A stretch of 64,000 nt of DNA from Caballeronia turbans (GTDB taxonomy: Bacteria > Pseudomonadota > Gammaproteobacteria > Burkholderiales > Burkholderiaceae): NCBI GenBank assembly GCA_001544655.2, contig FCOD02000007.1:240476-304475 (forward strand), read 5' to 3'. The position numbers and the translations under genes were made by a program. The notes under the pieces were generated by a model that saw only the letters and a list, made by a program, of their open reading frames with translations, did no database searches and was not told the DNA's origin. Every line of letters begins with the position of its first letter. Position 1 is the stretch's first letter. This document shows positions 55,296 through 55,370 of the stretch, piece after piece.

Positions 55296-55370
55296 TTAGC
55301 GTGTGGCGATATACATCGTGATTTCAAAGCCAAAGCGCATATCGGTGAAACTCGGGGTTTCCCACTTCAT
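55296..55370 (-). CDS. pqqA: PQQ precursor peptide PqqA, orphan copy
   Basis: A 24-residue ORF with GGAGGCTCT just before the ATG at 55370. [16 protein letters not shown] is followed by ITMYIATR, giving the invariant E16-x-x-x-Y20 pair that PqqE cross-links to start pyrroloquinoline quinone synthesis, and the usual Pro6, Arg12, Gly14 and C-terminal Arg. No pqqBCDE lies on either side; the gene is flanked by a terminator, so it is expressed alone. It may supply extra substrate to a PQQ operon elsewhere. Too short for standard gene finding. Confidence 0.88.
   Translation of the reverse strand: [24 protein letters not shown]

Follow-up and report, generated by a model that had tools for sequence, protein, structure and literature searches.

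Is a pqqA gene that stands away from the other pqq genes a working source of precursor, and what sets it apart from the further copies in its genome? PqqA is the peptide precursor of the redox cofactor PQQ. The 64,000-nucleotide stretch of Caballeronia turbans DNA analysed here (the window) contains a 24-residue ORF that a sequence-only reading had singled out as an orphan pqqA.

Identity and conservation of the window gene

Translation of the minus strand gives 24 residues and a stop at the position proposed (Table 1), and the plus strand of the same interval does not translate into a PqqA. The peptide matches the Pfam PqqA family PF08042 with 44.9 bits against a cut-off of 21.1, covering 19 of 19 model positions, and the NCBIfam model TIGR02107 with 47.2 bits against a cut-off of 20, covering 21 of 21. 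The residues by which the ORF had been recognized, P6, R12, G14, E16, Y20 and R24, are all present in the translation, and inspection of the minus strand bore out the ribosome-binding site upstream of the ATG.

Table 1. Features at the pqqA locus, with positions in the window
Feature	Position	Strand	Remarks
pqqA (class B paralogue), 24 aa and stop	55296..55370	-	PF08042 and TIGR02107 matches; peptide identical in 34/35 intact orthologous loci
Terminator hairpin, 13 pairs	55256..55285	both, probably	probably serves pqqA (-) and the convergent gene 55000-55233 (+)
Ribosome-binding site GGAGG, 4 bases from ATG	55375..55379	-	invariant in 34 aligned loci
Leader hairpin TGGCC...GGCCA, upstream of the ribosome-binding site	55392..55413	-	96.3% of cells paired in helix
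Decayed sigma54-like box TTGCACGGCGCCCGCA	55431..55446	-	-24 GG is TG; full box in 3/35 class B
-10-like box TAGGAT, candidate promoter	55476..55481	-	conserved in class B
Conserved upstream element GCAATTTCCAATCGTGCA	55498..55515	-	core TTTC[CT]A[AG]T in 30/35 class B, 0/80 other pqqA loci
Conserved AT-rich element TATAAATAAATTAAATGAACG	55521..55541	-	core in 28/35 class B, 0/80 other pqqA loci

The gene was compared with all 117 pqqA matches of 58 genomes of the genus, 115 of which read as intact by pattern. We assigned these to classes A, A2, B and C by peptide, not by locus, with 'C/other' a mixed group; A2 has nine members in the sigma54 scan described below and eight in the other counts, where locus L110 falls under C. 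The window gene is of class B, whose peptide is identical to that of class A at 22 of 24 residues, K2 and E4 of B being the two that differ.

Intact class B genes occur in 35 genomes, and the one peptide that departs from the rest (genome G044) does so at positions 4 and 7. E16 and Y20 are retained in all 35, and the ATG is in frame in each of the 34 class B coding sequences compared. As the genome also has pqqC and pqqE, none of the outcomes named beforehand as refuting the reading came up. For codon comparison, the 34 genes with the identical peptide were selected by the start MKWETP that they share. They vary in 19 columns, every one a third codon position, and the differences amount to at least 27 changes. 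The neutral expectation for this pattern is roughly 5e-20, a crude figure that takes no account of relatedness, codon use or the G044 locus; variation confined to third positions shows strong constraint on the amino acids. Taken with the profile scores, it rules out a chance ORF; the window pqqA is a real, conserved gene and very probably a functional one.

Fifteen of the 49 genomes with pqqE carry no intact B, whereas all three of A, B and C are present in genome G017. A broken B is found in two reduced genomes, G019 and G046, with an in-frame stop near the start in one and a frameshift in the other; since pqqE remains in both, B is dispensable there. The B peptide is encoded at 17 of 80 named loci recovered by a search with the neighbouring aminotransferase. 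A tree was built from 33 of the 80, picked by hand, and the window; all its B tips (18/18) fall on one side of a single branch with support 91/90, and B is absent from the C. sordidicola/udeis group and from the Paraburkholderia rows; of the 47 loci outside the tree, two (L185 and L186) combine a close aminotransferase with the absence of B. At least 141 of 299 genomes in a family sample, some of them from this genus, have a match to the window peptide, and among the matches listed every one of the 27 rows with 100% identity comes from the genus. In the genomes compared, class B was found only in Caballeronia.

Three pqqA copies and one pqqBCDE set

The genome that contains the window (7.35 Mb in 120 contigs, 99% complete) was searched with the PF08042 profile, and three pqqA loci scored over the cut-off, the window gene and two more. 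Of 14 control genomes searched likewise, six had a match with E no higher than 10 and none had one over the cut-off. There is one pqqE over the cut-off and one pqqC. The pqqE lies on a contig (C74) other than that of the window gene, which was accordingly right to be called an orphan without pqqBCDE neighbours; nor is the window pqqA directly upstream of a pqqB on the same strand. The order on C74 is cytochrome b561, a Lactamase_B_2 protein in the place of pqqB, pqqC, pqqD, pqqE and a LuxR-type response regulator, where pqqB was assigned from its domain together with its place and PqqD by its Pfam domain. As no PF08042 match was found on this contig of the 120-contig assembly, the pqqBCDE set, as assembled, stands without a pqqA head. 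The window gene thus shares its peptide family and Glu/Tyr pair with the pqqABCDE operon but is not near pqqB-E, and the picture of an extra copy beside a pqqA-headed operon survives in its first half: the copy stands alone, whereas the headed operon is missing from the assembly, all three copies found lying apart from pqqBCDE.

The class A copy (contig C62) sits between rubisco and DUF447/4HFCP-synthase genes, again on a contig other than that of pqqE. In some relatives A and pqqE share a contig, for example in G039, where 12.6 kb separate them, and in G017, with a distance of 16.1 kb. The class C copy (contig C54) lies between a sigma54 activator and a dehydrogenase of the PQQ methanol/ethanol family, which is followed by a cytochrome c protein. 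This dehydrogenase carries a DYD motif, which we take to be a mark of lanthanide-type alcohol dehydrogenases. At L009 (6911-8650 and 9518-11668) a DYD dehydrogenase, a class C pqqA and a sigma54 activator occur together and resemble a unit for lanthanide-type alcohol oxidation.

Quinoprotein matches (PF01011) occur at five places in the genome. The window itself had been credited with a PQQ-type dehydrogenase at 37391-38722, 17 kb from pqqA. This ORF does match the Glucose/Sorbosone dehydrogenase family PF07995 above the cut-off, but it matches no NCBIfam model above cut-off and is therefore a candidate PQQ enzyme at most.

Upstream regions and promoter types

The consensus of sigma54 promoters, TGGCACGNNNNTTGC, has GG at -24 and GC at -12, ten bases apart. 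We scanned the 250 bases upstream of each gene for the best site, requiring both GG and GC. Boxes agreeing at 10 or more of 12 positions were found in 38 of 39 class A loci, 8 of 9 A2 and 23 of 32 C (28 of 32 at 9 or more), against 3 of 35 class B loci; upstream regions with their single letters shuffled reached 10 of 12 in 0-0.5% of cases. In L039 and L040, both of class A, the best site lies a long way upstream of the gene and is possibly not its promoter. A further site, ACACTTTG, occurs upstream of A (36/39) and A2 (8/8) and is absent from B (0/35) and C (0/33).

The window gene reaches 9 of 12 positions, with TG in place of the GG. Counting the window, 14 of the 35 class B loci show this substitution, with GC kept, at their best sigma54-like site, and the full box persists in the B genes of C. 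telluris and C. arationis. This relic and the full boxes in those two species suggest an origin of B from a copy under sigma54 control, for which A, with 22 of 24 residues identical, is the simplest candidate, and a later change of control, a direction that we infer. A scan of the region upstream of the window pqqA for consensus sigma70 promoters returned no site. Searched against the whole genome with up to three mismatches, the AT-rich motif recovered its own site only, and the second class B motif, GCAATTTCCAATCGTGCA, gave nine sites against four for its reversed control, with an exact match at its own site alone.

We propose, with a probability of about 0.78, that the window gene is a functional stand-alone pqqA paralogue that provides a separately controlled supply of precursor to a single PqqBCDE set. 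The analysis shows the gene itself, its family, conservation and context, the promoter differences and the terminator hairpin; its expression, its processing by PqqDE and the conditions of its use we infer. The B peptide would very probably be bound by PqqD, receive its Glu16-Tyr20 cross-link from the single PqqE and be matured to PQQ by PqqB and PqqC, all four encoded on another contig. The pqqA copies would then differ chiefly in promoter and not in chemistry. Because the -24 element is lost in most species while the other upstream elements and the leader hairpin are kept, B probably supplies precursor when the sigma54 copies (A and most C) are silent.

A simpler account, that B adds precursor constantly and under no special regulation, is possible though doubtful. 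It would extend the earlier suggestion that a stand-alone copy could raise dosage, and an extra precursor gene is indeed there. Several pqqA matches also occur in other genomes, and excerpts of a study of a methylotroph strain with five copies call the supply of PqqA rate-determining (PMC11317620). From plain dosage, however, one would not expect A, C and B to keep promoter regions that are conserved and yet differ in type; since the upstream regions differ by class, separate control fits better. We consider unlikely the wider proposition that PQQ supply in Caballeronia is decided at the precursor and not at pqqBCDE, with pqqA detached and settled at up to three types of site that follow separate promoter logics: sigma54 in the symbiosis region, sigma54 at alcohol-oxidation genes, and a non-sigma54 copy with a structured leader as a possible sensor of PQQ or the peptide.

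Scattered pqqA copies are themselves a known kind of arrangement. Excerpts of four papers describe several pqqA genes with copy-specific expression in Methylovorus, other Methylophilaceae and Methylorubrum extorquens, the last with pqqA2 and pqqA3 (PMC4109929, PMC9851590, PMC11317620, PMC6520949). Like those methylotrophs as the excerpts describe them, C. turbans combines several pqqA with a single main set of the remaining pqq genes; unlike them, it has a pqqBCDE set without a pqqA head and copies that fall into classes with different promoter types. One of these classes, B, has a nearly invariant peptide and turned up in this genus alone. What is new here is the division into classes, the change of promoter type and the case, made below, against a published fragment claim.

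Co-occurrence of pqqA and pqqE

Counting pqqE at E up to 1e-80, we found it in 49 of the 58 genomes of the genus, and pqqA likewise in 49. A pqqA match accompanies pqqE in 48 of the 49, in G046 as the broken B alone; the exception, G045, is the sole genome with pqqE and no pqqA match, and its pqqE is interrupted. Eight of the nine genomes without pqqE have no pqqA either. In the ninth, G044, there are three pqqA; here, however, the contig stops at 29149, shortly beyond pqqC (which runs to 28272), and pqqE is therefore probably only unassembled. We had considered this genome, with no pqqE and an intact B peptide that is divergent, as a natural experiment and dropped it because of the contig end beside pqqC.

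Two genomes, G004 and G006, have two pqqE each. A pqqA on the strand of pqqE and some 2 kb upstream of it is found in G029, G032 and the second pqq set of G006 (L125, L127 and L129); judged by position, this is the spacing of a pqqA-headed operon.

That pqqA is missing from eight of nine genomes without pqqE argues against a role for the B peptide outside PQQ formation, for instance in metal binding, as do its unchanged core, E16 and Y20. Such a role, which we hold to be very unlikely, could account for the fixed K2/E4 signature of B, and it has parallels in the class C copy beside the DYD dehydrogenase and in the part in lanthanide uptake suggested, in an excerpt, for an orphan PqqA of Methylorubrum (PMC11317620).

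A conserved leader

Upstream of the class B coding sequence runs a conserved leader of about 110 bases. In an alignment of 34 leaders, from which L021 was left out for its shortened leader, a two-helix structure has 95.8% of 408 cells paired and 22 two-sided changes. None of 500 shuffles reached the observed value on either measure, and slid controls reached at most 43.3% and 10, a comparison in which the structure is favoured because it was derived from the same alignment. Fifteen of the 22 changes fall in one pair and so represent few independent events; the covariation of the leader hairpin is modest.

A model of the leader finds one place per genome in 38 of the 58 genomes. Thirty-seven of these are class B loci (35 intact, 2 broken), of which 34 match by construction, having served to build the model, and those of G015, G019 and G046 lay outside it; the 38th, in G045, has E 0.024 and no PqqA-like ORF. 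With one place per genome, we reject the reading as an RNA element with copies elsewhere in these genomes. In L068 and L074, the class B loci of G014 and G054, the leader is somewhat longer and altered and the peptide is unchanged. In L121 and L122, from genomes of 3.9 and 3.8 Mb, class B is broken and the leader is still matched by the model.

The extent of the leader, its covarying hairpin and its single place per genome would suit a transcript that acts mainly as a regulatory RNA or RNA switch and carries pqqA besides, a reading that we rate as highly improbable. The fold of the whole transcript is not unusually stable, at z -1.5 with 15 of 200 shuffles as stable, and the search of Rfam gave no family near its gathering score, the best being STnc350 with 23.7 bits against 60, over the terminator. 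The strong constraint sits on the amino acids, and since the old sigma54 box makes up part of the conserved leader, that stretch may be conserved for reasons other than RNA structure.

The copy in the insect-symbiosis region and the fragment claim

Rubisco, DUF447 and 4HFCP-synthase are named for the insect-symbiosis region of Burkholderiaceae in excerpts of PMC9088363 or PMC7397029, and the class A copy of C. turbans lies beside the same genes. An excerpt of PMC9088363, a 2022 paper on insect symbionts, describes the pqqA of that region as a degraded and probably unnecessary fragment of about 100 bp, and because of the shared neighbours we take class A to be the gene that is meant there. Unlike the fragment so described, the class A peptide (for example L001 and L008:14101-14172) is full length, as measured against the family models, and constant: it is unchanged in 38 loci, with variation at third positions only, and differs by one residue in the 39th. 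The window copy, for its part, is located elsewhere and does not come up in the excerpts. As far as the excerpt conveys the claim, conservation at the sequence level argues against it.

The corresponding reading of B as a relict, to which the published description and the broken copies in two reduced genomes would lend themselves, has next to no standing, with 21 of 21 NCBIfam model positions covered and variation at third positions only, which rules it out.

In the portions of open-licence papers that were matched, none names several pqqA copies in Caballeronia, and the term pqq was not found in the main text of a transposon study of C. insecticola (PMC10809759). Two PLSDB records carry just 2 annotated features each, so that a pqqA absent from their annotation says nothing about the gene. 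If pqqA is full length, present in several copies and differently promoted, removal of a single copy, or the label of a fragment, would mislead.

Terminator and immediate neighbours

The gene had been described as having its own terminator. A scan of 521 bases reported a single hairpin and listed it for the plus strand alone; with 0.7 such sites expected in the scan, this is about the chance level. On the minus strand the tail after the hairpin is TTTTCAGC, with too few T for the rule of the scan. At 34 of the 35 orthologous loci, pqqA is followed by a perfect stem of at least seven pairs and a T-rich end, the letters of the stem changing from one locus to another (the T count takes in the last three stem bases), and on these grounds we regard the terminator as real. 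Beyond the hairpin a convergent gene for a 77-aa protein is present in 29 of the 35 loci, and the terminator is therefore probably common to both genes. A terminator there is, then, but probably not one exclusive to pqqA.

The neighbours of the window pqqA are this 77-aa gene, a DUF2795 gene and GGDEF/EAL genes. A GGDEF/EAL gene lies within 1.5 kb at all 35 class B loci, with 85.8-100% identity in the part present; an aminotransferase gene is found at 24, a 78-aa gene at 25 and DUF2795 at 23. Where found outside the window's own genome, the small neighbouring proteins are 58-96% identical to those of the window. Of the 14 best matches of the neighbouring aminotransferase, which share 95-97% identity with it, 13 come from Caballeronia records and the other is filed under Burkholderia peredens. 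The 77-aa protein, which has no Pfam match, and the DUF2795 protein (55688-55921) flank many, not all, class B pqqA genes.
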